Positions 27,992 through 44,767 of a stretch of 64,000 nt of DNA are shown one piece after another. Position 1 is the first letter of the stretch, and each line of letters starts with the position of its first letter. Below the pieces are notes generated by a model. That model saw only the letters and a list, made by a program, of their open reading frames with translations. It made no database searches and had not been told where the DNA came from. Location of the stretch: NCBI GenBank assembly GCA_019119995.1, contig DWVY01000049.1:1-64000 (forward strand), read 5' to 3'. This DNA is from Candidatus Mediterraneibacter faecavium. Its GTDB lineage: Bacteria > Bacillota > Clostridia > Lachnospirales > Lachnospiraceae. The position numbers and the translations under genes are program-made.

Positions 27992-29111
27992 GTGGTTTTA
28001 TTAGATGAATTAAAGTCAAGACTGACTGCATATGAAGAACCGCTGAAAGATCTGAGGGATTCACTTTGACTTAGCGTCAAAGAAACTCAGGATCGAAGAA
28101 TTGCAGAAAAGGCTGGAGGAACCCGGGTTCTGGGATGACCCTGAAGTCTCCCAGCAGGTGATGAAAGAACTGAAGAATCTTCAGGATTCTGTCAAACAGA
28201 TCGAGCAGTTATACTCGGATTATGAGGACATGAAGCTGCTGATCGAGATGAGTGAAGAAGAACCGGACGAGGATACTTCAAAAGAGATCGAGGAGGAGCT
28301 GGAAGCGTTTGAGACGACGTTTGAAGAGCTTCGGATCAGCACGCTCCTGACAGGTCCTTATGACAAAGACAATGCCATCGTGACGCTCCATGCGGGAGCC
28401 GGCGGCACGGAGTCCTGCGACTGGGCGGGCATGCTGTACCGCATGTACACAAGATGGGCGGAGAAAAAGGGATACGATGTAGAGGAACTGGATTATCTGG
28501 AGGGCGATGTGGCCGGTATCAAGGGAGTTACCTTTGAGGTAAAAGGCGAGAATGCCTACGGCTATCTGCGCTCGGAGAAAGGCGTGCACCGTCTCGTGCG
28601 CATCTCCCCGTTCAATGCGGCGGGCAAAAGACAGACGTCCTTTGCCTCCTGCGATGTGATCCCGGATATAGAGGAAGATATCGACATTGAGATCAATGAC
28701 GATGATCTGAAGATCGACACTTACCGGTCCAGCGGCGCGGGCGGCCAGCATATCAATAAGACTTCCTCCGCGGTGAGGATCACCCATCTGCCGACCGGTA
28801 TCGTAGTTCAGTGCCAGAATGAACGTTCCCAGCATATGAACAAAGACAAGGCGATGCAGATGTTGAAATCCAAGCTCTATCTGATGAAGCAGCAGGAGCA
28901 GGCGGAGAAAATGTCGGATATCAGGGGCGAGGTGCGGGATATCAACTTCGGGAACCAGATCCGTTCCTATGTCATGCAGCCCTATACCCTTGTGAAAGAC
29001 CACAGGACCAACACGGAGGTCAGCAATGTAAACGCCGTGATGGACGGCAACATCGATCCGTTCATCAACGCATACTTAAGTGCAGAGACAGGGCCGGCGG
29101 CGGAAGAGTAG
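27992..29111 (+). CDS. prfB: Peptide chain release factor 2 (programmed +1 frameshift)
   Basis: A 372-residue release factor that reads UGA and UAA. The first 25 codons from GTG 27992 end in CTT then in-frame TGA at 28067-28069 followed by C. Ribosomes must slip +1 there; an internal Shine-Dalgarno-like GAGGG lies just before. After the shift the frame runs DLASKKLRIEELQKRLEEPGFW to 29111. The RF2 anticodon tripeptide SPF (RISPFNAAGKRQTS) and the hydrolytic GGQ (SGAGGQHINKT) are present. AGAAAGAGGTGA precedes the GTG by about 7 nt; an in-frame ATG at 27965 lacks such a site. Autoregulation by RF2 level is well established for this arrangement. Confidence 0.95.
28055..28070 (+). promoter_or_regulatory. 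prfB recoding site
   Basis: AGGG followed by ATTCA, then CTT-TGA-C. The CTT anticodon can re-pair with TTT in the +1 frame while the UGA waits for RF2. Confidence 0.9.
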
Positions 29112-29167
29112 TCCGGCCTGCGGTTTGTGCAGGCAGCAAATCAAAGAGTACAGATAAGGAGAAAACG

Positions 29168-30385
29168 ATGGTAAATATAGCAGTAATGGGATACGGCACC
29201 GTGGGATCCGGAGTCGTAGAAGTGATCAATACGAACTGCGATGTGATCAATCAGCGTGCAGCCAATGAAATCAATATTAAGTATGTGCTCGATCTCAGGG
29301 ATTTTCCCGGAGATCCGATCCAGGAGAAGATCGTTCATGACGTAGATGTGATCATCAATGATCCGGAGATCCGGATCGTAGTCGAGGTGATGGGCGGCAT
29401 CGAGCCTGCATATACATTTGTGAAACGCTGCCTTGAGGCAGGAAAGAGCGTTGTTACGTCCAATAAAGCGCTGGTCGCAAAGCACGGGGCAGAGCTGCTT
29501 TCGATCGCCCGCGACCGGGAGCTTAACTTCCTGTTTGAGGCGAGCGTGGGCGGCGGCATTCCGATCATCCGTGCGCTGAACTCCTGCCTGACAGCAGATA
29601 AGATCGAGGAGATCACGGGAATCCTGAACGGAACGACCAACTATATGCTCAGCAAGATGTTCTATGAGGGGGCTGACTATGATGAAGTCCTGAAAGAGGC
29701 TCAGGACAACGGCTATGCGGAGCGCAATCCGGAAGCGGATGTGGAAGGATATGATGCATGCCGCAAGATCGCGATCCTTTCCTCCCTCATTTCCGGACAG
29801 CAGGTTGATTTTGAGGATATTTATACAGAGGGCATCACAAAGATCACGAAGAAAGATATGCTCTATGCGAAGAAGATGGGGATGACGATCAAGCTGATCG
29901 CGTCCAGCAAACGCCATGAGGATCATGTGCATGCGATCGTGGCGCCCATGCTTTTGAATAAAGAGCACCCGCTCTACAGTGTGGATGATGTATTCAACGC
30001 TGTGTTCGTACACGGAAATATGCTTGGAGACGCGATGTTCTACGGCAGCGGCGCGGGCAAGCTCCCGACAGCCAGCGCGGTAGTGGCGGATGTTGTGGAC
30101 GAGGCAAAGCATCTGCACAGAAATATCATGACGATGTGGAAGAATGAGAAACTGACGCTCCTGCCGATCGAGGATACAGAGAAAAGATTCTTCGTCCGGA
30201 TCAGCGGCAGTGCGGATGAGCGCATCGAAGAGATCGAAAATGTATTCGGACCGGTCCGGAAGGTTACGGTCGACGAATTGGATGATGAGTTCGGTATCGT
30301 GACAGAAGTGATGACAGAAGGCGAATATCAGAAGAAATCTTCTCAGATCAACGGGATCCTTCACATGATCCGTATTGAAGACTAA
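29168..30385 (+). CDS. hom: Homoserine dehydrogenase
   Basis: A 405-residue NAD(P)H enzyme that reduces aspartate semialdehyde to homoserine, the branch point to threonine and methionine. The Rossmann motif GYGTVGSGV is at residues 8-16. The catalytic domain has VTSNKALVAKHG, FEASVGGGIPIIRAL, GILNGTTNYML and NPEADVEGYDACRKI. The last ~80 residues form an ACT-like domain (FFVRISGSADERIEEIENVFG), so feedback inhibition by threonine is likely. AAGGAG upstream. It is followed 30 nt later by the mutase-like gene, which I read as the next step of the pathway. Confidence 0.96.
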   Translation: MVNIAVMGYGTVGSGVVEVINTNCDVINQRAANEINIKYVLDLRDFPGDPIQEKIVHDVDVIINDPEIRIVVEVMGGIEPAYTFVKRCLEAGKSVVTSNKALVAKHGAELLSIARDRELNFLFEASVGGGIPIIRALNSCLTADKIEEITGILNGTTNYMLSKMFYEGADYDEVLKEAQDNGYAERNPEADVEGYDACRKIAILSSLISGQQVDFEDIYTEGITKITKKDMLYAKKMGMTIKLIASSKRHEDHVHAIVAPMLLNKEHPLYSVDDVFNAVFVHGNMLGDAMFYGSGAGKLPTASAVVADVVDEAKHLHRNIMTMWKNEKLTLLPIEDTEKRFFVRISGSADERIEEIENVFGPVRKVTVDELDDEFGIVTEVMTEGEYQKKSSQINGILHMIRIED

Positions 30386-30415
30386 GATGCAGCAGGCTGA
30401 TAACAGGAGGAAGAA

Positions 30416-31648
30416 ATGAAATATATTGTGATCTTATGTGACGGGATGGCTGATGAACCGCTTGACAGACTGGACGGGAAAACTCCGCTGGAAGCCGCCC
30501 GCACTCCGAATATGGACCGCCTTGCGAAGTCCGCGGAGATCGGAATGGCGCGTACAGTGCCGGAAGGGATGGCGCCGGGGAGCGACACGGCGAATCTGTC
30601 TGTGATCGGGTATGATCCGGAAAAGTATTATTCCGGGCGTTCGCCGCTTGAAGCGTTGAGCATCGGCGCGGACATGGGGAAAGATGATGTGTCTTTCCGG
30701 TGTAATCTTGTCACTTTGTCAGAAGAGGAAGACCGGTACGAAGACCGTACGATATTAGATCACAGTTCCGGGGAGATCAGCACGGAGGATGCTGCCGTCC
30801 TGATCGAGGCTCTGAAGAATGAATTTGCGCAGGGCAATGTGTCCGAACGTCCCTGCTATGCCCCAGGATACAGCTTTTATGTGGGGACGAGCTACCGTCA
30901 TCTGCTGATCCAGGATAACGGGAGAGTAGTGGATCTCACGGCTCCCCATGATATATTGACAAAACGGATCGGAGACTGTCTGCCGTCGGATCCGGTGCTG
31001 CGGGACATGATGGTCAGAAGCTACGATATCCTTAAAAGTCATCCGGTCAATGTGAAGCGCCGCGCCGAGGGAAAGAATCCGGCGAACTCCGCATGGTTCT
31101 GGGGAGCGGGAACACGGCCTGCACTGACCTCATTTGAGGAGAAAAACGGTGTGAAAGGGGCTATGATCTCCGCGGTCGACCTGCTGAAAGGGATCGCAGT
31201 GGGAGCCGGGATGCACAATATCATCGTTGAGGGCGCCAACGGCGGCCTGCATACGAATTACCGGGGGAAAGGGCAGGCGGCAGTAAAAGCGCTGACAGAA
31301 GACGGCTATGATTTCGTCTATGTACATATCGAGGCGCCCGACGAGATGGGACATCAGGGCAGTGCGGAAGATAAGATCAGCGCCATCGAGTATATCGACG
31401 ATCAGGTGATCGGCCCGGTGGCAGAGGCTCTTGAGAAGTCCGGGACGGATTTCCGCATGCTCGTCATGCCGGATCATCCCACGCCGGTGCGCGTGCGCAC
31501 CCATACATCAGATCCCGTGCCGTATATGATCTATGACAGTACAAAGCCGGTTCAGGGAAAAGACAGTTACAGTGAGAAGACCGGCCGGGAGACAGGCGTC
31601 TTTGTCGAAAAAGGATATACCCTGATCGATCATCTGCTTGAAAAATAG
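30416..31648 (+). CDS. Phosphoglycerate-mutase-like enzyme, putative homoserine kinase
   Basis: A 410-residue member of the alkaline phosphatase superfamily, archaeal-type cofactor-independent phosphoglycerate mutase branch. Metal ligands are seen in ILCDGMADEP at the N-terminus, the phospho-serine in APGSDTANLSVIGYDP, and late metal sites in HIEAPDEMGHQG and VMPDHPTPVRVRTHTSDPVPY. Members next to hom have been proposed (TIGR02535-type family) to act as homoserine kinase, replacing ThrB. Its position right after hom, and no ThrB in the window, support that reading. The alternative is glycolytic mutase activity. GGAGGAAG precedes the ATG. Confidence 0.8.
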   Translation: MKYIVILCDGMADEPLDRLDGKTPLEAARTPNMDRLAKSAEIGMARTVPEGMAPGSDTANLSVIGYDPEKYYSGRSPLEALSIGADMGKDDVSFRCNLVTLSEEEDRYEDRTILDHSSGEISTEDAAVLIEALKNEFAQGNVSERPCYAPGYSFYVGTSYRHLLIQDNGRVVDLTAPHDILTKRIGDCLPSDPVLRDMMVRSYDILKSHPVNVKRRAEGKNPANSAWFWGAGTRPALTSFEEKNGVKGAMISAVDLLKGIAVGAGMHNIIVEGANGGLHTNYRGKGQAAVKALTEDGYDFVYVHIEAPDEMGHQGSAEDKISAIEYIDDQVIGPVAEALEKSGTDFRMLVMPDHPTPVRVRTHTSDPVPYMIYDSTKPVQGKDSYSEKTGRETGVFVEKGYTLIDHLLEK

Positions 31649-31684
31649 AACACTCGGAAAATAGAAGATCATGAAAAATAATTT

Positions 31685-31740
31685 CAGCCGGAATACAAGT
31701 GAGCGACTTCTGTACGCTTGCTTGTATTCCGGCTGCTTTT
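31685..31740 (+). terminator. Terminator of the secA-prfB-hom cluster
   Basis: CAGCCGGAATACAAG (31685-31699) pairs perfectly with CTTGTATTCCGGCTG (31721-31735), extended by GAGCG/CGCTT, followed by CTTTT. Confidence 0.9.
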
Positions 31741-31773
31741 CATAAAAGAGCCTTTAGAAAATCTTTGGAATTG

Positions 31774-31802
31774 TTGATAAGAATGGAAAAATAGGATAGT
31801 AT
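31774..31802 (+). promoter_or_regulatory. Promoter of the GNAT gene
   Basis: TTGATA (31774-31779), 17-bp spacer, TAGTAT (31797-31802). Confidence 0.5.
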
Positions 31803-31834
31803 AAGACCATATCTGTAACTGGAGGTAAGGATAA

Positions 31835-32281
31835 ATGATACGGAAATTAACAGAAAACCACAGGGACTTATATATAAGGATGGCGGAAGAATTCTACAGT
31901 TCGGACGCAGTACTCCATCCGATCCCCCGGGCGTATATTGAGCGGACGGCGGACGAGGCGCTCCAGTCTGACGCATACGCGGAAATCTATCTGCTGGAGT
32001 GTGAAGGGGAGCCTGCAGGGTACGGGCTGACCGCCAGGACATTCTCTCAGGAGGCCGGGGGATCGGTGCTCTGGATCGAGGAACTCTACATCAGGGAGCA
32101 GTTCCGCTCCAGAGGACTGGGCAGGGAGTTCTTCTCTTATATAGAAGAGAAGAATAAGGACAGGACCGCCCGGATCAGACTCGAAGTGGAAGAGGAAAAT
32201 ACAAGGGCTGCTTCTTTATATGAAAGACTTGGATATGAGAAGCTGGATTATAAACAGATGATCAAGGATCTTGTGGACTAA
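31835..32281 (+). CDS. GNAT family N-acetyltransferase
   Basis: A 148-residue acetyl-CoA-dependent transferase. The acetyl-CoA loop is QFRSRGLGREFF (motif A, Q/RxxGxG/A form), preceded by the strand LWIEELYI and followed by RLEVEEENTRAASLYERLGYE, the typical motif B. The substrate is unknown; it could acetylate a small amine or a protein N-terminus. Ribosome binding site TGGAGGTAAGG 6 nt before the ATG. It has its own promoter and no operon partner. Confidence 0.85.
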   Translation: MIRKLTENHRDLYIRMAEEFYSSDAVLHPIPRAYIERTADEALQSDAYAEIYLLECEGEPAGYGLTARTFSQEAGGSVLWIEELYIREQFRSRGLGREFFSYIEEKNKDRTARIRLEVEEENTRAASLYERLGYEKLDYKQMIKDLVD

Positions 32282-32331
32282 GAGGGGGGAATACATGTAT
32301 ACAATCCGACATAAATTCTTTGAATCCCCCA

Positions 32332-32361
32332 TTGCATGTTACCGTACAACAATGCTATAAT
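32332..32361 (+). promoter_or_regulatory. Promoter of the DUF5717 operon
   Basis: TTGCAT (32332-32337), 18-bp spacer, TATAAT (32356-32361) with TG one base before it (extended -10). Start of transcription should be near 32368. Confidence 0.65.
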
Positions 32362-32419
32362 TCATAGTAGCGTATTTTGCCATTCGGGGCAGAAGTAGAA
32401 TTGTGAGTAGGTGACTGAT

Positions 32420-35400
32420 TTGAAGAATAAGATCAAACGTTTTGCCAAAGGAGATTTCCATATCCCGCAGCCGGAGATCATTTTCCCGGAGACAAGGATC
32501 ATCATGCGAGTCGGCGAGGGTGAAAAATACAGAGGGAGTTTCTCCCTGCAGAATCAGGGGGAAGGCACGATCCGCGGGCTCGTGTATCCCTCTTCTTATC
32601 GTGTGCATTGTGATGAACAGGGGTTTGATTCTAATCCGGTCAATATTTATTATACATACGACGGGACCGGGCTTGTCCCGGGCCATGTAGAGCACGGCAA
32701 GTTTACCATCGTCTGCAACGGCGGGGAGTTTGACATTGCCTTTACGGCGATCATAGAGAAGCCGTATGTGATGACGAGTTACGGCAAGGTACAGAGCCTG
32801 GATGATTTCAAAAAGCTCTCTTTCCGGGATGCGGCGGAGGCGGTCAAGCTGTTCCGTTCAAGGGATTTTTATGAGATCCTGAAATATGAAGACAAAAGGA
32901 TACAGGCGCTCTATGACAATATGCGCCGGTGGGAGCTGGATCAGCAGGCCCTGGAGGAGTTCCTTGTCGGATGCAAGCAGAAGGAGAAGATCTTCCTGAC
33001 GCTCGAGGAGGAGAGCAGGGCGTTTATTTCTCTTACAGAGCCTAGAAAAGAGACATTTGCGATCAAGAAAAATACATGGGGATACCTTGAGATCGACGTG
33101 AAGACAGAGGGAGACTTCCTGTACGTTGAGCATACCCGCATTACTACAGAAGAATTTATAGGGAATTCCTATCGTCTTGAGTACTTCCTGGATACAGAAA
33201 AGCTGCATAAGGGAAGCAACTTCGGGCGGATCATACTGGAGTCGCCTTATGAGACTCTGACTTACGAAGTGGTAGTCGAGAAAGATATTGCCCGCGATGA
33301 GGATCACAGGGCGAATGACCGTGAGTTTGCCGGGATACTCAAAAACTATCTGAAATATGAAGGCGGGAAGATGCAGCTCGACGACTGGGTGGAAGAGGCC
33401 ATACGGCGGATCAGTCATCTCCGCGAGATGGATGAGAGCAATGAATATTATCTTCTTGCCCACGCCCACATCTGTCTGATCGGAAAGCGGACGGACGAGG
33501 CAAAATGGCTGCTGGAGTCTTATAATTACAACAGATTCGCGATCGGAAAAGATATTGAATTAAGTTCTTACTATCTTTATCTGACGACGCTTTTGTCCAA
33601 TGATACGATCGGACAGCGCAAAGTTGCGGAAGAACTTTCGAAGTCTTTCATGAAGCATCCGGACAGCTGGAAGATCCTCTGCATGCTTGTGGAGGTGGAT
33701 TCGGAATATAAGATATACAGCGAGAGACTCAGGGCTCTTGAAAAGCAGTTCTACGAGGACAAGTCCCACAGTATCTGGTTCTACCTGCAGGCATTCCGGT
33801 GCTTCCGGGATAAGAGCTCTTCTCTGAAGAAGCTGGGGATGTTCGAAGTCCAGGTGCTGCTCTTTGCGGTGAAGTATAAGCTGATGACAAGGGAACTGGC
33901 ATTGTATACAGCCAATCTTGCCAGCCAGATGAAGGTGTTTGACCGTCACCTCTATGATGTGCTTGTAAAGGCGTACGATATGTACAATGAATCCATGATC
34001 CTGACTGCGATCTGTACGCTTCTTATCAAAGGCAACTGCATGGACAGCTGTTATTTTAAATGGTATGAAAAAGCTGTGGAAAACGAGCTGAAGATCGCCC
34101 AGCTCTATGAATATTACATGGCAACTGTCCGCCCGGAACAGTTCCACAAGCCGCTGCCCAGATCCGTATATCTGTATTTTATGCACGGGAATAATCTGGA
34201 TTTCAATAAGTGTGCATTCCTTTATTCCAATCTCATCACCTACGAGGACGAATCCAGTGAGATCTATGCCCATTACCGGGATGAGATGGAAGCCTTTGCA
34301 TGGAATCAGCTGGACCGCCGGAATATCAATGAACAGCTCAGGATCATCTACAAGAGATTTGTCGTAGAATCAGCTATGAATCCGGAACGCGTAAAAGCGT
34401 TATATGATGTCTGCCACGCATACTGGATCACCACAAAGGTCCGGAATATGAAGTATGTCCATGTGATCGCAGAAGACGGCACGATCACGCAGAAAGCTCC
34501 TTATACGGAAAAAGGCGCGCGGGTATTCCTGTATTCCAAGACAGACAGACTTGTCTGGGAAGCGAAGGACGGAAGGCATTATACGGACTCTATCCCGTAT
34601 GAGAGCAAGAGGCTGTTCTACGAACTCCGGTATATGGATATGTGCAGGAAATATATCAACGGACTGCGCAGGAACCGGTCGGAAGAACAGGCTCAGGAGC
34701 TTACGTTGGAAGTCGTCCGTGAAAACGGGCTTGAAAATTATGCGGAGGAAGAGATCTTCGCGCTCTGCAGCAAGACGATCCGTGAAAATAATTATGAGAA
34801 TGACGATTTTCTTACCTATGTCTGTTTTGAACTGTTTAAGAAGCAGCAGTATGACAAAGTGATCCTGACGTATCTTGCCAATTATTACTGCGGCGCCACT
34901 TCGGATATGAAGCTGCTCTGGCGCGAGGCGAGAGACTATGAGATCCATACCCATAAACTTGCCGAGCGGATCCTGACCCAGATGCTTTTCTCGGAGGAAT
35001 TGTTCCAGGAGGCGCAGATCTTTGAACAGTATTACGCGGAGGGGGCTTATTTCAGGCTCCAGCAGGCATATCTGACCTATGTCTCGAGAGAGTATGTAGT
35101 GGAAGAACGGAAGATCGGACGCAGTGTGATCGATATTATCTGCCGGGAATATGAAAAGGGAGAAGACACGGGGGATATCTGCAAGATCGCCGTGCTGAAA
35201 TATTATTCTCAGAGGGAGTACAATACACAGACTCGCAGGACGTTAAAGAAATTCCTTCAGGAACTCTGCGGAAAACAGATTTATTTCCCGTTCTTCCTCT
35301 CCTATGAGAAGGAATGGCTGATCGAACTGCAGCTCTGGGACAAGACACTGATCGAATATAAAGGACAGAAGGGCAGCAGGGTCATGCTCTATTACCAGCT

Positions 35401-35713
35401 GCAAAAAGGCGGCGAGGAGCAGGCTGAATATTCGACGGAGGTGCTGACTCCGATGTATGAGAATCTTTATGTGAAGAAGTTTGTCCTGTTTGCCGACGAG
35501 AAACTGAAGTACTACTTTAAAGAGACGATAGACGGGAATTCTTACCGCAGCGACAAGGAGACATGTGTCAGGACGTCTGAGCCGGGCGAGCAGGGAAGAT
35601 ACGGCCGCCTGAACGATATCCTGATGGAGAAAGACCAGAAGGCAAGAAAGAGAAAAATGCAGGCATATGCGCTGGAAGATGCAGTGGCAGTGCATATGTT
35701 CGCACAGGAATAA
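32420..35713 (+). CDS. DUF5717 family protein, large beta-sandwich and helical-repeat protein
   Basis: A 1097-residue cytoplasmic protein (no signal or membrane segment) that I match to the clostridial DUF5717 family; function unknown. Residues 1-130 look like an Ig/ASH-like beta domain (PEIIFPETRIIMRV, YRGSFSLQNQGEGTIRGLVY). A helical part follows, then a second beta domain at about 210-290. From about 320 to 960 there are helical TPR-like repeats (LAHAHICLIGKRTDEAKWLLES), and a final beta domain lies near 980-1060. The TTG at 32420 is preferred because AGGTGA lies 5 nt before it; GTG 32411 has no site. First gene of a three-gene operon with a Hsp70-like and a TPR protein. Confidence 0.8.
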   Translation: MKNKIKRFAKGDFHIPQPEIIFPETRIIMRVGEGEKYRGSFSLQNQGEGTIRGLVYPSSYRVHCDEQGFDSNPVNIYYTYDGTGLVPGHVEHGKFTIVCNGGEFDIAFTAIIEKPYVMTSYGKVQSLDDFKKLSFRDAAEAVKLFRSRDFYEILKYEDKRIQALYDNMRRWELDQQALEEFLVGCKQKEKIFLTLEEESRAFISLTEPRKETFAIKKNTWGYLEIDVKTEGDFLYVEHTRITTEEFIGNSYRLEYFLDTEKLHKGSNFGRIILESPYETLTYEVVVEKDIARDEDHRANDREFAGILKNYLKYEGGKMQLDDWVEEAIRRISHLREMDESNEYYLLAHAHICLIGKRTDEAKWLLESYNYNRFAIGKDIELSSYYLYLTTLLSNDTIGQRKVAEELSKSFMKHPDSWKILCMLVEVDSEYKIYSERLRALEKQFYEDKSHSIWFYLQAFRCFRDKSSSLKKLGMFEVQVLLFAVKYKLMTRELALYTANLASQMKVFDRHLYDVLVKAYDMYNESMILTAICTLLIKGNCMDSCYFKWYEKAVENELKIAQLYEYYMATVRPEQFHKPLPRSVYLYFMHGNNLDFNKCAFLYSNLITYEDESSEIYAHYRDEMEAFAWNQLDRRNINEQLRIIYKRFVVESAMNPERVKALYDVCHAYWITTKVRNMKYVHVIAEDGTITQKAPYTEKGARVFLYSKTDRLVWEAKDGRHYTDSIPYESKRLFYELRYMDMCRKYINGLRRNRSEEQAQELTLEVVRENGLENYAEEEIFALCSKTIRENNYENDDFLTYVCFELFKKQQYDKVILTYLANYYCGATSDMKLLWREARDYEIHTHKLAERILTQMLFSEELFQEAQIFEQYYAEGAYFRLQQAYLTYVSREYVVEERKIGRSVIDIICREYEKGEDTGDICKIAVLKYYSQREYNTQTRRTLKKFLQELCGKQIYFPFFLSYEKEWLIELQLWDKTLIEYKGQKGSRVMLYYQLQKGGEEQAEYSTEVLTPMYENLYVKKFVLFADEKLKYYFKETIDGNSYRSDKETCVRTSEPGEQGRYGRLNDILMEKDQKARKRKMQAYALEDAVAVHMFAQE

Positions 35714-35729
35714 GGAGGTTGTCTTTTAC

Positions 35730-37013
35730 ATGGGACAAGGCAGTATCATTGGTTATGAGATAAATGAAAAGACATGTCAGATCAGTTTTTACAATGACGA
35801 AGAACTGGAGCCGGATACCCTGGAGGTGGATTCCGATAATTATCAGATCCCTCTGATCATCGGAAAACTCAGGGATACATGGGCGTATGGCAAAGAGGCA
35901 AAACGGCTTGTCAGCATCAAGGAAGGCTTTACAGTGACCAGACTGCTCAGCAAAAGCCTTGCAGGTGACAAGATAGAGTTCGGGGAAGAAACCTATGATG
36001 CGGTCTGGCTGCTCTCTCAGTTCATCCAGATGTCACTGCAGCCGTTTCCGGTGATCGACGGCATCGTATTTACGGTTCCGGCGCTTACAGAAGAACTGGC
36101 CCAGATGCTGCGCGGGATCGCTGCCCGGATGAATATTGATAAAAGACATGTTTTTATACAGGACTATAAGGAAAGCTTCTGTAATTACCTGTTTTACCAG
36201 CCGAAAGAGCTCTGGCAGTATGACGCGGCGCTCTTCTGCTGCGACAGAAACGAGATCAGGGCATACATGCTCCGGCGGCTCCGTCCGGGACTGGGCGGCG
36301 GAAAGACCACATTTGTGACAGTGGATGAAGTGGCCAGCGCCCACATGAAAGAACTGGCAATGGTATATCCGGTGCTCAATGAAGACAAAGCAAAAGAAGC
36401 AGATGCCATGTTCTGCAGATTTATTGAGAGCGTGTTCGACAAGAGGATCGTATCTTCCGTATTTCTGACGGGGGAAGGGTTCGAGAATAACTGGTATCCG
36501 AAAGCGCTCCGTGTTTTGTGCAACGGAAGGCGTGCTTTCATCGGAAATAACCTTTACAGTAAAGGCGCATGCTATACTGCTTACAGGAAACTTTACATGC
36601 ATATCGAGAATCCGGTCTATCTTTCGGAGGATAAGCTGACCGACCAGATCACGGTAAATATGCGCGTGGACGGCCAGGAGATGTGGTATCCGATCGTATC
36701 CTGGGGGGCTCACTGGTATGAATCCAATAACCAGTGGGAGGTGCTCTGTGAGGATATGGATGAGATCGAGTTCCATATCGAGTCTCTGATCCAGGGGAAT
36801 ATGAGGACAGAGAAGATCTCGCTTGCCCGGCTGCCGAAGCGTTCGGAATATTCTGTGCGCCTGCAGCTTGAGACGGTTTTTCTCGACAATAAGACATGCA
36901 GGATCACTGTAAGAGATGCAGGGTTTGGAGATTTCTTCCCGGCGACTGATTTTCACGCCGAGAAGACGATACACTTAGGAGGCAATGATGGGAAATTTAA
37001 TTCTTTGTCATGA
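35730..37013 (+). CDS. DUF5716 family protein, degenerate Hsp70/actin-fold
   Basis: A 427-residue protein matching the DUF5716 family. Its order of motifs mirrors an Hsp70 ATPase domain: IIGYEINEKTCQISFYND where Hsp70 has IGIDLGTTNS; GIVFTVPALTEELAQMLRGI where Hsp70 has VPAYF; VFIQDYKESFCNYLFY where Hsp70 has NEPTAAALAY; AALFCCDRNEIRAYML for DLGGGTFDVS; VFLTGEGFENNWYPKAL for the adenosine site. The glycines and threonines that bind ATP phosphates are mostly lost, so ATP binding is doubtful. No peptide-binding domain follows. Its AAGGAGG overlaps the DUF5717 stop codon, so the two are coupled. Confidence 0.75.
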   Translation: MGQGSIIGYEINEKTCQISFYNDEELEPDTLEVDSDNYQIPLIIGKLRDTWAYGKEAKRLVSIKEGFTVTRLLSKSLAGDKIEFGEETYDAVWLLSQFIQMSLQPFPVIDGIVFTVPALTEELAQMLRGIAARMNIDKRHVFIQDYKESFCNYLFYQPKELWQYDAALFCCDRNEIRAYMLRRLRPGLGGGKTTFVTVDEVASAHMKELAMVYPVLNEDKAKEADAMFCRFIESVFDKRIVSSVFLTGEGFENNWYPKALRVLCNGRRAFIGNNLYSKGACYTAYRKLYMHIENPVYLSEDKLTDQITVNMRVDGQEMWYPIVSWGAHWYESNNQWEVLCEDMDEIEFHIESLIQGNMRTEKISLARLPKRSEYSVRLQLETVFLDNKTCRITVRDAGFGDFFPATDFHAEKTIHLGGNDGKFNSLS

Positions 37014-37755
37014 CAGACATGCGACACATCCCTATGAGATCACGAGGATACACTGCCGTATCTTTACGATCGAAGAGCTGTGCTACTATCTTTGCAATAA
37101 TCTCTATCTGATCGACTATACGATCATGAACGCCCAGCTCTGCGACTGGCTTGACGAAGAGCTGGGGATGGATAAACTGGCGTCTGATCTGAAAGATGTG
37201 CTCCGCCTTCACGGATCGGTGGAAAAATTCGTCCTCACGATCCTGAAAGCATCAAAGATCTACCGGGAGCCGGAGATGATCCGCATCCAGAATGTGCTGG
37301 AACATCTGAAGAATCAGAAAGACATCGAGCGGCAGAAGTACAAAGGCGATAACCTTCTGGAGAGCGGAGAGGTGGAAGAGGCGATCCTCGTCTACCAGGC
37401 AATCCTCAACCAGGAAAAAGATGAGTCTGTAGATGAGAAATTTTACGGCAAGATCTATGCCGGACTTGGAGCGGCATACGGACGCCTGTTCCTGTATCAG
37501 GAGGCTGCCCGGATGTACGACAGGGCTTATCAGATCTGTCAGGACAAAGCGCTGATCAAGCCATATCTGTATGCGTCGTATAAATATATGTCGCTTGAAG
37601 AATACCATATCCTGATCACGAAACAGGATGACTACATGGAGATCAATGCGCAGATGCGCCGCGAGATCGACGAAATACGAGAGAATATGTCTGAAGAGAC
37701 GGATCCTGATCTCATAGAGAAATGGAAACGCCAACACAGGAGAAATCATTCATAA
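36988..37755 (+). CDS. TPR-containing protein, third gene of the DUF5717 operon
   Basis: A 255-residue protein. The first ~110 residues (ILCHDRHATHPYEI, IEELCYYLCNNLYLIDYTIM) have no family that I know. Residues 110-200 contain TPR-like pairs: KYKGDNLLESGEVEEAILVYQAIL and KIYAGLGAAYGRLFLYQEAARMYDRAYQ. The gene starts 26 bp inside the DUF5716 gene, with AGGAGG at 36978-36982 region just before two in-frame ATGs (36985, 36988), a sign of tight coupling and stoichiometric production. It is probably a partner or adaptor for the Hsp70-like protein, as TPR proteins often are; that is inference. Confidence 0.75.
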   Translation: MGNLILCHDRHATHPYEITRIHCRIFTIEELCYYLCNNLYLIDYTIMNAQLCDWLDEELGMDKLASDLKDVLRLHGSVEKFVLTILKASKIYREPEMIRIQNVLEHLKNQKDIERQKYKGDNLLESGEVEEAILVYQAILNQEKDESVDEKFYGKIYAGLGAAYGRLFLYQEAARMYDRAYQICQDKALIKPYLYASYKYMSLEEYHILITKQDDYMEINAQMRREIDEIRENMSEETDPDLIEKWKRQHRRNHS

Positions 37756-37762
37756 ACCGGCA

Positions 37763-37800
37763 GTATCCCCCTGACAAAGTACTATTTGACAGGGGGATAC
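37763..37800. terminator. Hairpin after the DUF5717 operon, overlapping the next promoter
   Basis: GTATCCCCCTG (37763-37773) pairs with CAGGGGGATAC (37790-37800). There is no T-tract. The right arm contains most of the -35 and the spacer of the downstream promoter, so it could be a terminator, an operator, or both. Confidence 0.5.
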
Positions 37801-37814
37801 CATTATGATAGAAT
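37786..37814 (+). promoter_or_regulatory. Promoter of the amino acid ABC transporter operon
   Basis: Perfect TTGACA (37786-37791), 17-bp spacer, TAGAAT (37809-37814). Confidence 0.8.
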
Positions 37815-37897
37815 ACAACGGTAACTTTACCATGGTACAGTGACTCATTGGTAGAGAAAAGAAGTAAAATCGGTGATATCCGGAGATGGAGGTAATT

Positions 37898-38698
37898 ATG
37901 AAAAGAAGAGTATTGAGTGTATTGCTTTGTGCGGGTATGGCAGTCTCCCTGCTAGCGGGCTGCGGATCCGGAAACAGCGGCAAGGACAGTGAGAGCGATA
38001 AAGCGTATGTGCAGGATAAGGGGACCCTTGTCGTGGGCATTACCAATTTTGAGCCTATGGATTACAAAGACGAGAGCGGAGAGTGGATCGGATTTGACGC
38101 GGATCTCGCGAAGAAATTTGCCGAGAGCCTTGGCGTGGAAGCTGAGTTCGTGGAGATCGACTGGGACAACAAGATCATGGAACTTGACGGCAAGACGATC
38201 GACTGCGTGTGGAACGGCATGACTCTGACTCCGGAGGTGACCAGTTCCATGGACTGTACAGACGCATACCTTAACAATGCACAGGTCGTGGTCGTGCCGA
38301 AAGAAGTGGCGGATCAGTATCAGGATGAGGAAAGCCTTGCGGATCTGAACTTCGCGGCAGAGGCCGGAAGCGCAGGGGAAGAGGAACTTGAGGCGAGAGG
38401 GCTGAACGTGACGCCGGTGACTGCGCAGGCGGACGCACTTATGGAGGTCGCTGCCGGGACTTCTGACGCGGCTGTGATCGACCTGCTCATGGCGGCTGCC
38501 ATGATCGGCGACGGGACAAACTATGCCGACCTTACATATACGGTCCACTTAAACAATGAAGAGTACGGCGTCGGTTTCCGCCAGGGATCTGACCTGCCAG
38601 ACGAACTGAACAGCTTCTTCGCATCCTGCTATGAGGACGGCAGCATCCAGGAGCTGGCAGAGACATACGGAGTACAGGCTGCTCTTGTTGAAGAGTAA
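37898..38698 (+). CDS. Amino acid ABC transporter, substrate-binding lipoprotein
   Basis: A 266-residue family 3 solute-binding protein. A signal peptide ends in the lipobox LLAGC at residues 16-20, then the mature part begins with KGTLVVGITNFEPMDYKDESGEWIGFDADLAKKFAESLG, the usual start of polar amino acid binders. It should sit on the outer membrane face and deliver a polar amino acid to the permease encoded next. Specificity cannot be decided; cystine, glutamine or lysine binders look alike here. Ribosome binding site GGAGGTAA 6 nt before the ATG. First gene of a binder-permease-ATPase operon. Confidence 0.92.
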   Translation: MKRRVLSVLLCAGMAVSLLAGCGSGNSGKDSESDKAYVQDKGTLVVGITNFEPMDYKDESGEWIGFDADLAKKFAESLGVEAEFVEIDWDNKIMELDGKTIDCVWNGMTLTPEVTSSMDCTDAYLNNAQVVVVPKEVADQYQDEESLADLNFAAEAGSAGEEELEARGLNVTPVTAQADALMEVAAGTSDAAVIDLLMAAAMIGDGTNYADLTYTVHLNNEEYGVGFRQGSDLPDELNSFFASCYEDGSIQELAETYGVQAALVEE

Positions 38699-38728
38699 AG
38701 AAAACAAGAATACGGACGGGGTTATCTT

Positions 38729-39412
38729 ATGACATTTTCAGAACAGTTTCCTATTGTTGTCAACGCGTTGAACGGAGGGTTTCTGCAGACGCTGAAGCTT
38801 TTCTTCGTGACGCTGATCGGAGCGATCCCGCTGGGGCTGATCATCTCTTTCGGATCGATGTCCCGGTTTAAACCGCTCAGTTACTTTACAAAGATCGTCG
38901 TCTGGATCATCAGAGGAACACCTCTGATGATCCAGCTTTTGATCATTTATTTTATGCCCGGACTGGTCGGGGAGTACAATATATGGGGCGGAGGCGAGAG
39001 CGGACGGTTCGCCGCGGCGTCCGTTGCGTTTATCTTTAACTATTCCTGTTATTTTTCGGAGATCTACCGCGGTGGGATCCAGGGAGTGCCGAAAGGGCAG
39101 GAAGAGGCGGGGCTCGTGCTCGGCATGACCAAGAGCCAGATCTTCTTTAAGGTCAAGCTGCTGCAGATGATCAAGAGGATCGTGCCGCCTATGTCCAACG
39201 AGATCATTACACTGGTGAAGGATACATCGCTTTCCCGTATCATCGCGCTTCAGGAAGTCATCTGGGCGGGCCAGTCATTTATGAAAGGCAATATGGGGAT
39301 CGCCGGCGTGATCTGGCCGCTGTTTTTCACGGCAGTTTACTATCTGATCTTTAACGGCATCCTGACGGTCCTTCTCGGCCGTCTTGAGAGAAAACTGGAA
39401 TATTTCAGGTAG
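38729..39412 (+). CDS. Amino acid ABC transporter, permease
   Basis: A 227-residue HisM/GlnP-type permease with about five membrane segments. It starts with the family's [22 protein letters not shown] and has the EAA loop that contacts the ATPase, [36 protein letters not shown] is a signature of the polar amino acid permeases. Only one permease gene is present, so it should form a homodimer. Confidence 0.93.
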
Positions 39413-39425
39413 GAGGCGGAAAGCT

Positions 39426-40211
39426 ATGGCAATATTGGAAGTACAGCATATAAGTAAAAGTTTTGGAAATACAGAAGTGTTAAAGGATATCAGCTTTTCA
39501 CTGGAAAAGGGGAAAGTGCTCTCCATGATCGGCTCTTCCGGAAGCGGAAAGACGACGCTGCTGCGCTGCCTGAATTTTCTGGAACAGCCGGACGGCGGGG
39601 TGATCCGTGTGAACGGAGAAACGCTGTTTGACGCTGCGGATCCGCAGACACGCCAGGAGAGCGAGATCCGGAAGAAACGCCTTCATTTCGGACTCGTATT
39701 TCAGTCTTTTAACCTGTTCCCGCAGTATACGGCTCTTCAGAACGTGATGCTGGCAAAGGAGCTTCTTGAGAAGGAGAAACCGGACTATAAGGCGAGAAAA
39801 AAAGAGATCCATGAGCAGATCGAACAGGAGGCAAAAATGCTCCTGGACCAGATGGGGCTTTCCGACAGGGTCAGCAATTATCCCCATCAGCTTTCGGGCG
39901 GGCAGTGCCAGCGCGTTGCGATCGCCAGGGCACTCGCGTTAAAGCCGGATATCCTCTGTTTTGATGAGCCTACATCCGCGCTCGACCCGGAGCTTACGGG
40001 AGAAGTCCTCAAAGTGATCAAGGGACTTGCAGACCAGGAGACGACAATGATCATCGTCACCCATGAGATGGCATTTGCAAGGGATGTCTCAAGCCAGGTG
40101 ATCTTCATGGATGACGGCTGTATCATGGAGCAGGGAACGCCGGAAGAAGTGTTTGGAAATCCGAAGGAAGAACGGACGAAGCAATTTTTGTCACGTTATA
40201 CAAAAGGCTGA
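39426..40211 (+). CDS. Amino acid ABC transporter, ATP-binding protein
   Basis: A 261-residue ATPase with Walker [10 protein letters not shown] near residue 38, signature [15 protein letters not shown], Walker [13 protein letters not shown] and H-loop [17 protein letters not shown] lies 11 nt before the ATG at 39426. An insertion ([24 protein letters not shown]) between the Q-loop and signature is longer than in GlnQ. It energises the adjacent permease. No terminator hairpin with T-tract follows directly. Confidence 0.94.
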
Positions 40212-40437
40212 TGTACAGTGCCGGGTTTATATGCAAAATCGATAAATCACAGCGAATATATTAGGCAGACTTATAAAAAGTCCGGAAATAAAATAATGAG
40301 CCGGAGTGATACAGGGCAGGGGGGAATGTTGATTTTCCACCTGCCTTATATTATAATCGAGGTTGCAGATCGGCATTTTATAAGCTGATCCGTATGAAAC
40401 AGATTACCTGAAGAGACTAGTAAGGAGCAGGATTTAG
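40212..40437 (+). promoter_or_regulatory. purF upstream region with promoter
   Basis: A 226-bp gap. GGCAGGGGG (40315-40323) can pair with CCACCTGCC (40337-40345). The promoter TTGATT (40329-40334), 17-bp spacer, TATAAT (40352-40357) overlaps this hairpin. The leader of about 75 nt does not show a purine riboswitch or PurBox that I recognise. Confidence 0.7.
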
Positions 40438-41865
40438 ATGACAGAATTCAGCAGGGTATCTACCGGGCTCGGCGAGGAATGCGGAGTCTTCGGGGCTTAT
40501 GATATGGACGGGCACGATGTGGCGCCGTCGATCTATTATGGATTGTTTGCACTGCAGCACAGGGGACAGGAGAGCTGTGGGATCGCAGTGACAGATACAA
40601 ACGGACAGAGGAAAGTCCTTTCAAAGAAAGGGCTTGGCCATGTAAATGATGTGTTTGACGAGGAAACTCTACAGGAATTGAAAGGAAATCTCGGCGTGGG
40701 ACATGTCCGTTATTCTACGGCGGGAGGCACCCGGGTCGAGAATGCGCAGCCGCTTGTGATCAATTATGTAAAGGGAACACTGGCGATCGCGCACAACGGA
40801 AATATTGTCAATGCGGTCGAGCTGCGCAGAGAACTCGAGTATACCGGGGCGATCTTCCAGACGACGATCGATTCGGAGGTGATCGCGTATCATATCGCAA
40901 GAGAACGGCTGAATACGGGGACGGCCGAAGAAGCGGTGAAGAGCGCGATGAAAAAGATAAAGGGCGCCTATGCTCTTGTTGTCAACAGTCCCCGGAAGAT
41001 GATCGGGGCGAGAGATCCTTTCGGCCTCAAGCCGCTGTGCATCGGGAAACGCGACAACACCTATTTCCTCGCATCTGAGAGCTGTGCGATCACAGCGGTG
41101 GATGCAGAGTTCGTGCGCGATGTGCAGCCGGGGGAGATCGTAACGATTACACGGAAAGGGATCGCCTCGGATATGAGCATGGCTGTTCCGGAGGAGAAGC
41201 GTGCACGGTGCATCTTTGAGTATATTTATTTTGCGCGTACAGACAGCAGGATCGACGGAGTTGACGTCTATCATTCCAGGATCCTGGCAGGGAAAGCCCT
41301 GGCGGAGTCCTATCCGGTGGAAGCGGATCTTGTGGTCGGCGTTCCGGATTCGGGACTGGTGGCGGCGAAAGGATATTCCGAATATTCGGGGATCCCGTAT
41401 GGCATGGCGTTTCACAAGAACAGTTATGTGGGAAGGACGTTTATCAAGCCAAAGCAGAGCGACCGGGAGTCCAGCGTGAAGATCAAACTGAATGTGATCC
41501 CGGAAGTTGTGAGAGGAAAGCGGATCGTCATGGTCGATGATTCCATCGTGCGGGGAACGACCTGCGCGAATATCATAAAGATGCTGAAAAACGCAGGGGC
41601 ATCGGAAGTACATGTACGTATCAGCTCGCCGCCGTTTCTGCATCCCTGCTATTTCGGAACGGACGTTCCGTCCGATGACCAGCTGATCGCCCATACACAC
41701 ACACCGGAGCAGATCCGGCAGATGATCGGGGCGGATTCACTGGGATATATGGAGATCAGTAAGCTGAAGGATATGGTCGGAGACTTAAAGTACTGCGACG
41801 CATGCTTCACAGGAAATTATCCCATGGAAGTCCCGGGAAAGGACATCAGCCACGCGTTTGAATGA
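40438..41865 (+). CDS. purF: Amidophosphoribosyltransferase
   Basis: A 475-residue enzyme for the first step of purine synthesis (PRPP plus glutamine to phosphoribosylamine). The 14-residue leader MTEFSRVSTGLGEE is presumably cleaved before the catalytic Cys15 (ECGVFGAYD). The Ntn glutaminase domain has LQHRGQESCGIA and RYSTAGG. The phosphoribosyltransferase domain has the PRPP loop IVMVDDSIVRGTTCANI. Cysteines (C250-type region CIFEYIYFARTDS; CYFGTD; YCDACFTGNYP) fit the [4Fe-4S] form found in Bacillus PurF. Ribosome binding site AAGGAGCAGG upstream. Together with purB it forms a small purine pair. Confidence 0.96.
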   Translation: MTEFSRVSTGLGEECGVFGAYDMDGHDVAPSIYYGLFALQHRGQESCGIAVTDTNGQRKVLSKKGLGHVNDVFDEETLQELKGNLGVGHVRYSTAGGTRVENAQPLVINYVKGTLAIAHNGNIVNAVELRRELEYTGAIFQTTIDSEVIAYHIARERLNTGTAEEAVKSAMKKIKGAYALVVNSPRKMIGARDPFGLKPLCIGKRDNTYFLASESCAITAVDAEFVRDVQPGEIVTITRKGIASDMSMAVPEEKRARCIFEYIYFARTDSRIDGVDVYHSRILAGKALAESYPVEADLVVGVPDSGLVAAKGYSEYSGIPYGMAFHKNSYVGRTFIKPKQSDRESSVKIKLNVIPEVVRGKRIVMVDDSIVRGTTCANIIKMLKNAGASEVHVRISSPPFLHPCYFGTDVPSDDQLIAHTHTPEQIRQMIGADSLGYMEISKLKDMVGDLKYCDACFTGNYPMEVPGKDISHAFE

Positions 41866-41917
41866 TACGGCCTGTCCGTGTAATATATAATAAAAAATGA
41901 AAAAGGAGATCACGATT

Positions 41918-43351
41918 ATGTCAAATGACCGCTATGTAAGCCCGCTTTCTGAGCGCTACGCAAGTAAGGAGATGCAGTACATTTTTTCGCCGGACAAGAA
42001 GTTCCGCACATGGAGAAGACTCTGGATCGCGCTCGCCGAGACAGAGAAAGAGCTGGGGCTCAATATTACAGACGAGCAGATCGAAGAGCTGAAAAGCCAT
42101 GCGGACGACATCAACTATGACGTGGCAAAAGAGAGAGAGAAAGTTGTACGCCATGACGTTATGTCCCATGTCTATGCATATGGAGTACAGTGCCCGAAAG
42201 CGAAGGGGATCATCCATCTCGGGGCTACTTCCTGCTATGTGGGAGACAATACAGACATCATCGTTATGTCTGAGGCGTTGAAACTGGTGAGAAAGAAACT
42301 GATCAATGTGATCGCAGAACTTGCAAAATTCGCGGATGCACAGAAGAGCCAGCCGACACTTGCTTTCACGCATTTTCAGCCGGCGCAGCCTACAACAGTA
42401 GGAAAACGTGCCACTCTGTGGATGCAGGAATTTGAAATGGATCTGGAGGATCTGGACTATGTACTGGGAAGCCTGAAACTGCTCGGCTCCAAAGGAACGA
42501 CGGGAACGCAGGCAAGTTTCCTTGAACTTTTCGACGGAGATCAGGAGACGATCGACAAGATCGATCCGATGATCGCCCAGAAGATGGGCTTCAAAGCATG
42601 CTATCCGGTATCCGGACAGACGTATTCCAGAAAAGTGGATACAAGGGTGCTCAATGTGCTGGCGGGGATCGCGGCAAGCGCCCACAAGTTCTCTAACGAT
42701 ATCCGTCTCCTTCAGCATTTAAAGGAGATCGAGGAACCGTTTGAGAAGACGCAGATCGGTTCTTCCGCTATGGCGTATAAGAGAAATCCGATGCGGAGCG
42801 AGCGTATCGCTTCTCTATCACGCTATGTGATGATCGACGCCCTGAATCCGGCGATCACATCGGCAACGCAGTGGTTTGAGCGTACACTGGATGACTCTGC
42901 CAACAAGCGGCTGAGCGTTCCGGAGGGATTCCTTGCCATCGACGGCATCCTGGATCTGTGCCTGAACGTAGTGGACGGCCTTGTGGTATATCCGAAAGTG
43001 ATCGAGAAGCGCCTGATGTCCGAGCTGCCGTTTATGGCGACAGAAAATATCATGATGGATGCAGTAAAAGCAGGCGGGGACAGACAGGAACTGCACGAGA
43101 AGATCCGCGAGCTTTCTATGGAAGCTGGAAAAAATGTAAAAGAAAAAGGACTGGATAATAACCTGCTCGAACTCATCGCAGCGGATCCGGCGTTCAACTT
43201 AAGCCTTGAGGATCTGCAGAAGACGATGGATCCGTCAAAATATGTGGGACGTGCCAGAGAACAGGTGGAAGCATATCTGAAAAATGTGATCGATCCGCTC
43301 CTTGAAGAGAACAAAGAAGTGCTTGGGATGACAGCAGAGATCAATGTCTGA
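41918..43351 (+). CDS. purB: Adenylosuccinate lyase
   Basis: A 477-residue lyase used twice in purine synthesis (SAICAR to AICAR, adenylosuccinate to AMP). The fumarase/aspartase signature is GSSAMAYKRNPMRSE, which contains the flexible catalytic loop; HLGATSCYVGDNTDI and TLAFTHFQPAQPTTVGKRA are the other conserved regions. It is longer than the B. subtilis enzyme (about 430) and closer to the eukaryote-like clostridial form. AAAAGGAG is 10 nt before the ATG at 41918. It ends before a T-tract terminator. Confidence 0.95.
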   Translation: MSNDRYVSPLSERYASKEMQYIFSPDKKFRTWRRLWIALAETEKELGLNITDEQIEELKSHADDINYDVAKEREKVVRHDVMSHVYAYGVQCPKAKGIIHLGATSCYVGDNTDIIVMSEALKLVRKKLINVIAELAKFADAQKSQPTLAFTHFQPAQPTTVGKRATLWMQEFEMDLEDLDYVLGSLKLLGSKGTTGTQASFLELFDGDQETIDKIDPMIAQKMGFKACYPVSGQTYSRKVDTRVLNVLAGIAASAHKFSNDIRLLQHLKEIEEPFEKTQIGSSAMAYKRNPMRSERIASLSRYVMIDALNPAITSATQWFERTLDDSANKRLSVPEGFLAIDGILDLCLNVVDGLVVYPKVIEKRLMSELPFMATENIMMDAVKAGGDRQELHEKIRELSMEAGKNVKEKGLDNNLLELIAADPAFNLSLEDLQKTMDPSKYVGRAREQVEAYLKNVIDPLLEENKEVLGMTAEINV

Positions 43352-43391
43352 TCTATGAAGCTTTCTGACAGATCAGTATAGAGAAAACCGC

Positions 43392-43428
43392 AAAGGAATG
43401 TTGCGAATGATTGCGACATTCCTTTTTC
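43392..43428 (+). terminator. Terminator after purB
   Basis: AAAGGAATGT (43392-43401) pairs with ACATTCCTTT (43416-43425), with GC closing pairs inside and a T-run. Confidence 0.85.
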
Positions 43429-43453
43429 TCTGATATCTTATTTCTTGGAGAAG

Positions 43454-43476
43454 CATATGGAAAATAGTTCCATATG
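43454..43476. promoter_or_regulatory. Perfect inverted repeat before the surface protein gene (possible operator)
   Basis: CATATGGAA (43454-43462), five bases, TTCCATATG (43468-43476). It lies 32 nt before the start codon. The form suggests a dimeric repressor site, but it could also be a leader hairpin. Confidence 0.4.
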
Positions 43477-43507
43477 ACTGTTGTGGTGATGAAAGGAAAG
43501 GAAAACA

Positions 43508-44671: not shown

Positions 44672-44676
44672 TATTG

Positions 44677-44705
44677 TTGAAGAATCCTCTGAATTGTTTT
44701 ATAAT
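44677..44705 (+). promoter_or_regulatory. Promoter of the sirtuin-gltX-helicase operon
   Basis: TTGAAG (44677-44682), 17-bp spacer, TATAAT (44700-44705). Confidence 0.65.
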
Positions 44706-44767
44706 ATCTGATATATTACAGAAACATGACCTGCTGATGCAGCGACCAGCAGAAAGGAGGGATCTTT

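Follow-up and report, generated by a model that had tools for sequence, protein, structure and literature searches.

Ssz1 of the ribosome-associated complex (RAC) and Hsp110/Sse1 are eukaryotic proteins with the Hsp70 fold that serve as partners rather than as classical foldases; they keep nucleotide binding and work either together with a J protein, as Ssz1 does, or upon Hsp70 itself. In Hsp70 proteins sub-domain IIB clamps the nucleotide and is the binding place of GrpE, and Hsp70 and MreB have a common actin fold. Among bacteria, a study of GAP1-N2 GTPase systems describes gene clusters that join HSP70, GrpE and FNIII- or tetratricopeptide-repeat (TPR)-type proteins, with the HSP70 theme found chiefly in actinobacteria and firmicutes (PMC7159879). 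Here we describe a three-gene unit, A–B–C, on the forward strand of a 64 000-nucleotide stretch (the window; positions 1–64 000 of contig DWVY01000049.1, assembly GCA_019119995.1) of Candidatus Mediterraneibacter faecavium, a member of the Lachnospiraceae.

The first gene, A (32420–35713), encodes a DUF5717 protein of 1097 residues (Pfam PF18984/PF18983) and starts at a TTG codon, with a GTG at 32411 as a possible alternative. B (35730–37013; ATG start) is a DUF5716 protein of 427 residues (Pfam PF18980) that is assigned as a pseudo-Hsp70 from its AlphaFold2 model and Foldseek matches. C (255 residues; ATG at 36988 or 36985, ending at 37755) is assigned as a TPR protein from a Pfam TPR_12 match and from a profile match to its counterpart in a longer operon of related families. 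Pfam describes DUF5716_C and DUF5717 only as being of unknown function, and a literature search by name and theme found no published functional study of either, the one hit by name appearing to be unrelated. From the comparisons below, A, B and C are rather probably what is left, as a scaffold core, of a dedicated Hsp70 machine after the loss of its ATP-driven parts; a present role as an ATP-independent scaffold or holdase has, in our judgement, about an even chance of being correct.

Fold of B and loss of its ATP-site residues

The AlphaFold2 model of B, built from a 74-sequence alignment, has a predicted local distance difference test score (pLDDT) of 89.0 and a predicted template-modelling score (pTM) of 0.88. 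A Foldseek search of the PDB returned 301 matches with an expectation value (E) of 0.001 or less. Among the 50 matches listed, 49 titles are those of Hsp70 or an Hsp70 complex (DnaK, BiP, Hsc70, RAC and Sse1) and one is that of a ciliary central pair chain; the best match is to a lid-deleted DnaK mutant (E = 2e-17), and BiP and Ssz1 are also among the best. The template-modelling (TM) scores normalised to B are only 0.42–0.54, which indicates that its two domains lie differently than in Hsp70. They consist of a degenerate nucleotide-binding domain (residues ~1–295) and a β substrate domain (residues ~296–416), with boundaries placed by eye on the model, which stops after the β domain and has no α-helical lid. 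As judged from this model, B is an Hsp70 by fold, in agreement with the proposal that the first-pass annotation had made from the order of its motifs; the outcome set beforehand as refuting, a fold unrelated to Hsp70/actin, did not occur. An MreB-like actin was considered and rejected, as the listed Foldseek matches are of the Hsp70 type and include the β substrate domain. The B sequence of the window has no PF00012 (HSP70) match at E up to 1, and PDB sequence searches gave two weak matches with B itself and none with a B profile. In one relative (genome G114; locus L251, 895–2454) B is 519 residues long and carries an insertion of ~118 residues in the first domain.

The ATP-site motifs were counted over 80 copies of B and over the four Hsp70 paralogues of the longer operon (14 copies each of H1, H2 and H3 and 12 of H4). 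None of the 80 B copies has the first threonine of phosphate-1, the first glycine of phosphate-2, the EPxAAA glutamate or the second glycine of the adenosine motif. The TT and GGG motifs are likewise kept in 0/80, which bears out the earlier statement that B has lost its phosphate-binding glycines. Every ATP-site residue gone from B is retained in H1 (14/14), H3 (14/14) and H4 (12/12). H2 is intermediate, with the first phosphate-1 threonine in 6/14 copies and the EPxAAA glutamate in 2/14. Between the phosphate-2 and adenosine motifs B is shorter than H2 by some 80–90 residues, a stretch that presumably corresponds to the region of sub-domain IIB.

The longer operon and the origin of B

In a draw of 196 genomes from the order, the DUF5717_N profile of A matched 94, of which 22 are Lachnospiraceae (including that of the window) and 72 belong to other families. 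Twenty of these 72 were opened and 15 were extended downstream. An Hsp70-type gene encoding 554–581 residues lies 3′ of A on the same strand in 19 of the 20, with a small called frame intervening in L112, and the order A, H1, K, H2, H3 is present in 14 of the 15 extended loci, A often being split into genes for ~400 and ~900 residues. H4, an Hsp70 of ~692 residues, comes next in 13 loci (as two frames in G395). C was recognised by BLAST in ten loci (as a fragment in G395), and a gene for 308–386 residues takes its place in three more. In G571, A has no adjoining Hsp70s and an H3 orthologue is located on another contig. H1 (Pfam HSP70, E = 5e-76), H3 (HSP70, E = 2e-63) and H4 (HSP70, E = 2e-96, plus VWA) are intact lidless Hsp70s; by Pfam, K has a C-terminal GrpE domain in the three copies tested (3/3), and the C protein of this operon has many TPR matches. 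When a single copy each of H1, H2, H3 and H4 was compared with NCBIfam, no copy reached the DnaK cut-off.

Several features of individual loci may be recorded here. The VWA domain of H4 occupies the position of the Hsp70 lid in L132 (1000–3078). In G395 (L100, 360–6853) H4 and probably C each fall in two frames and K has just 279 residues, with the GrpE end; the split frames represent either decay or draft-assembly errors. A protein of 331–482 residues that has hydrophobic segments and weakly matches Pfam families of coiled-coil type is encoded directly upstream of A in L113 (7683–8975) and in six other loci of the order (7/20). An aminotransferase-type gene, identified by Pfam on one gene per operon form, is found near A in both forms, mostly upstream and divergent (its cluster is present in 21 of 41 loci), and supports their synteny.

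At locus L103 the H2 sequence matches DUF5716_C (E = 3e-27) as well as HSP70 (E = 7e-17) and so provides a sequence bridge between the two families. Profile comparison aligned B with H2 over 437 columns (E = 5e-39), with H3 at E = 2e-18 and with H1 at a probability of 61% only. The C profiles of the short and long forms matched over 181 columns from residue 1 (E = 1e-22), and the A profiles matched at E = 2e-76. In a 60-row tree the B sequences form one clade (100/100) whose sister is the H2 of G395 (100/100), a genome that retains the long operon and whose H3 falls in the H3 clade. G395 was again sister to the Lachnospiraceae when the tree was rebuilt without the flagged long rows and, separately, in a tree of A. 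Since G395 keeps the set, a single loss is the simpler reading. We regard it as very probable, from these sequence relationships, that B is the orthologue of H2 and that the short unit derives from the multi-Hsp70 operon. The earlier suggestion that an Hsp70 fold has here become structural or a sensor is supported by the absence of key ATP-site residues from all 80 copies, together with this descent from a half-degenerate paralogue.

The active Hsp70s were sought elsewhere in the family. A search of 60 Lachnospiraceae genomes found no H3 orthologue; the best of 98 matches had E = 1e-60, compared with 1e-289 or better for true H3. As H1 and H4 would score just ~1e-57 to 1e-61 in an H3 search, 40 of the 98 matches, mostly those not of DnaK size, were opened. 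None of the 40 is H1, H3 or H4 (best scores of 220, 215 and 327 bits versus at least 934, 929 and 1218 bits for true members), and all score best with the profile of the window genome's DnaK; persistence of H1 or H4 elsewhere in Lachnospiraceae was rejected on these 40 of the 98. H3 is present in three of 29 chosen genomes (G395, G426 and G571), all with A, and in none of 20 order genomes without A. K gave GrpE-tail matches alone, in four of 245 class genomes and in none of the nine Lachnospiraceae of that draw. In the genome of the window (90% complete) there is a single DnaK, along with one weak match in an MreB-sized frame, and no second full Hsp70. Many Lachnospiraceae (L255–L273 and others) do carry a second Hsp70, of ~490–650 residues, which is unlike H1, H3 and H4 and scores ~270–930 bits with the DnaK profile of the window genome.

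Gene layout, distribution and neighbours

The layout reported by the first-pass annotation was found as described: three genes in tight order, with the ribosome-binding site of B (AAGGAGG, 35712–35718) overlapping the stop codon of A (TAA, 35711–35713) and the start codon of C located inside the B coding sequence. Its family assignments also hold, A scoring E = 2e-214 (714.5 bits) with DUF5717_N and E = 2e-103 (346.3 bits) with DUF5717 (Pfam cut-off 25), and B scoring E = 9e-103 (343.8 bits) with DUF5716_C (curated cut-off 34.7). For C the TPR assignment stands in part: TPR_12 was matched, but at E = 8e-4, which is under the Pfam cut-off; about 100 residues at the N-terminus of C are conserved. 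NCBIfam gave sub-cut-off matches only for all three proteins. The single promoter that had been claimed likewise holds in part. A putative promoter (32332–32361) does contain an extended −10 element, TGCTATAAT, at 32353–32361, with a weak −35 element, TTGCAT, 18 bases ahead of TATAAT. However, this site is missing from the listing of a consensus promoter scan, and its pattern occurs five times in the window versus 1.3 expected, so that one promoter driving A–B–C is plausible rather than established.

The AlphaFold2 model of A (37 sequences; pLDDT 84.8, pTM 0.46) shows four β regions (~26–124, 193–288, 667–731 and 975–1050) and helical-repeat stretches at 294–665 and 736–962, and so agrees with the previous description of several β domains around a long helical solenoid. 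Foldseek matched A at E = 2e-7 to ciliary central pair chains and at E = 2e-5 to SPD-2 domains, both of which we take for β-sandwich matches, and at E = 4e-5 to 8e-4 to solenoid proteins of the IFT-A, Ski and Paf1/Ctr9 complexes. With TM scores to A of 0.15 at most, such matches of a predicted model speak to architecture and not to function. Relative to most relatives, A of the window lacks ~95 residues near residues 748–762 (1097 residues versus a median near 1190).

The families were surveyed in 150 Lachnospiraceae genomes, one per genus, and in 14 control genomes. DUF5716_C and DUF5717 are each present in 145 genera and occur together in 144, and neither is present in any of the 14 controls. 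A check set beforehand, whether the A and B genes are neighbours or lie apart, found them on one contig in 141 of the 144 (read by hand from two tables), the exceptions being G009, G039 and G055. A and B are single-copy in nearly all genomes, with two places in G129. In wider draws, DUF5716_C matched nine of 245 class genomes, all Lachnospiraceae and including that of the window, and the A profile matched 12 of 291 class genomes, ten of them Lachnospiraceae (again including that of the window), and four of 299 phylum genomes, all Lachnospiraceae. The two weak class matches outside the family are in frames of just 323 and 338 residues and were taken for chance; on these class and phylum results a spread of the unit beyond the order was rejected.

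A named scan covered the best 80 of 531 relatives. Gene calls were made with a simple script, whose artefacts concealed B or C in three of the 80 loci and were corrected. The order A–B–C is present in 78 of the 80, which shows that the arrangement is not due to chance, and the remaining two run into contig edges. The median gaps are 18 bases between A and B (79 loci) and 17 bases between B and C (75 loci). In five genera B and C are fused into one open frame that matches both profiles. The median identity on shared pairs is 0.43 for A, 0.45 for B and 0.35 for C, compared with 0.88 for adenylosuccinate lyase. On these sequence comparisons the unit appears near-universal yet fast-evolving, which is unusual for a housekeeping gene.

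A further protein, D, of a family of ~394 residues, is encoded directly 3′ of C in 60 of the 72 named loci that have A and C; in 57 of the 72 the gene after C, whatever its kind, shares its strand and lies no more than 60 bases away. The D profile matches 64 of the 80 loci. Two hydrophobic segments, as judged from hydropathy only, are present in 57 of 61 copies (e.g. L149, 10137–11321), flanked by arms that look like coiled coils in sequence. No Pfam family scored above its cut-off in the three D proteins tested. D also lies 3′ of C in four of the long operons; seven others that were asked have it at another place in the genome, and it occurs in three order genomes in which A was not found. 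Of the 26 Lachnospiraceae genomes asked, that of the window and 22 others lack D, which was thus rejected as a core member. The 44 genomes asked were chosen, many of them since D is not beside C, so these counts give no estimate of frequency. Ten other genomes with a short A are likewise without D, which is missing from some genomes with a long A too. The cytoplasmic location proposed earlier must be qualified, as many relatives have D with its two hydrophobic segments after C; the genome of the window does not.

Downstream of C the next gene encodes a solute-binding protein (Pfam) and has a strong promoter-like site of its own (37786–37814), which makes C the probable end of the unit. A hairpin at 37764–37799 (z = −6.2 versus shuffles for 37745–37815) has no T run and overlaps this site, its 3′ arm containing the −35 element TTGACA. 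An Rfam search of 29000–45000 matched no families. Tandem repeats of 24/48 bases at 43817–44081 encode a proline-rich array within an open reading frame (43508–44671) that has no Pfam match.

Proposed role and known systems

The events that we propose would begin with H2 as an Hsp70 paralogue already losing its nucleotide site inside the operon A, H1, K, H2, H3, H4, C. In a Lachnospiraceae ancestor H1, K, H3 and H4 would then have been lost, with A, B and C staying as a fast-evolving core and B additionally losing the stretch expected to hold sub-domain IIB. A, B and C may form a stable complex with A as its backbone. C would touch B, as the natural B–C fusions suggest; these support a contact of those two proteins only and not the fixed-ratio complex of all three that had been proposed, so that the first-pass interpretation as a whole is partly supported. 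The lidless β domain of B, or the solenoids, might hold a client peptide or an assembly partner without ATP cycling. The housekeeping DnaK may supply folding power, and D probably tethers the complex to the membrane in many members.

A number of observations weigh against this account. B retains the phosphate-1 aspartate in 70/80 copies, the phosphate-2 aspartate in 46/80 and the first adenosine glycine in 80/80, and B could still bind nucleotide despite its lost motifs. None of the trees is rooted, both Hsp70 trees carry long-branch warnings, and the priority of the long operon rests on parsimony. Corrected distance correlations are high (A–B 0.95, B–C 0.93, A–C 0.89) but the control neighbour reaches 0.93, and this measure was dropped as evidence of contact since controls are equally high. 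A and B are missing from G029, G091 and G098, each more than 90% complete, and also from G128 (69%), so that some members can do without the unit. Absence of D from the genome of the window means that membrane tethering cannot be general.

The best-surviving alternative, which we nevertheless hold to be unlikely, makes A–B–C a co-chaperone of DnaK, with B as an Ssz1- or Hsp110-like protein and A and C as adaptors for clients or the ribosome, the whole tuning DnaK. Ssz1/RAC and Sse1/Hsp110 chains are within the top 50 Foldseek matches of B, one DnaK is available to serve in the window genome and C is of TPR type; on the other hand, none of the three proteins has a J domain by Pfam, most nucleotide-binding residues are gone from B, and DnaK need not be the partner given that the long operon supplies its own Hsp70s and GrpE-type protein. 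Quite unlikely, in our view, is a structural or cytoskeletal element of envelope organisation in which B is an actin-like building block, A a brace and D an anchor in many members. H1, H3 and H4 match MreB_Mbl weakly, the best fold matches of A are to ciliary central pair chains and other large assemblies, and nearly all D copies have the paired hydrophobic segments; however, the β substrate domain retained by B would be superfluous for an actin-type filament, solenoid fold matches are unspecific, and D is missing from this and other genomes.

A conflict or anti-phage system akin to the GTPase–HSP70–GrpE–TPR systems is very improbable: the parts are similar to those described in PMC7159879 (Hsp70, GrpE, β-rich and TPR proteins), A–B–C evolve fast and the genes occur in two faecal records with a phage label, but the unit is near-universal and single-copy, PADLOC gives no match for A, B and C at E up to 1 and weak matches for the long operon (H3 left out) to the Hsp70 part of H4 and the TPR part of C only, none of 79 pattern matches in viral contigs was confirmed as a B relative and none was found in plasmids, and Pfam detects no GTPase in A, B, C, H1, K, H2, H3 or H4 (farther neighbours were scanned in part). 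On the PADLOC, viral and plasmid results a mobile or defence gene was rejected. Four unannotated 'Bacteriophage sp.' faecal records that match A weigh against that rejection; the two of them that were opened, both UNVERIFIED (L253 and L254; MT835486.1 and MT835988.1), carry A–B–C–D, with D cut short in one. We provisionally take these records for bacterial DNA in virome assemblies, real cargo being the alternative.

We return to the preferred reading, a chaperone-derived, ATPase-free core machine of the Lachnospiraceae in which a pseudo-Hsp70 is locked in a scaffold with the giant β-sandwich/solenoid protein A and the TPR protein C, and which outlasted all active Hsp70s and the exchange factor of the ancestral operon; in this specific form it could as well be right as wrong. 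If true, it describes a chaperone system whose kept job is structural or peptide-holding and not ATP-driven folding. Active Hsp70, half-degenerate H2 and dead B make a natural series in which to ask how an Hsp70 scaffold functions once ATP is no longer used. The Lachnospiraceae are among the main butyrate-forming gut bacteria, and a near-universal single-copy three-protein unit of theirs is now linked to Hsp70, as well as to an operon of related families that encodes several Hsp70s.

Compared with known systems, B resembles DnaK/Hsp70 (PF00012) in having nucleotide-binding and β substrate domains, with descent through H2, and differs in that most ATP-site residues are gone, the nucleotide-binding domain is shortened and the lid is absent. 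It resembles Ssz1 of RAC and Hsp110/Sse1 in being matched to them among the top Foldseek results, and the unit differs from Ssz1/RAC in having no J domain. The GAP1-N2 systems of PMC7159879 are centred on GTPases, whereas A–B–C is a vertically inherited core unit. Set beside those systems, A–B–C appears to be a new Hsp70-derived system from which the ATPases are gone, the nearest published theme being the GTPase–HSP70–GrpE–TPR systems (PMC7159879).

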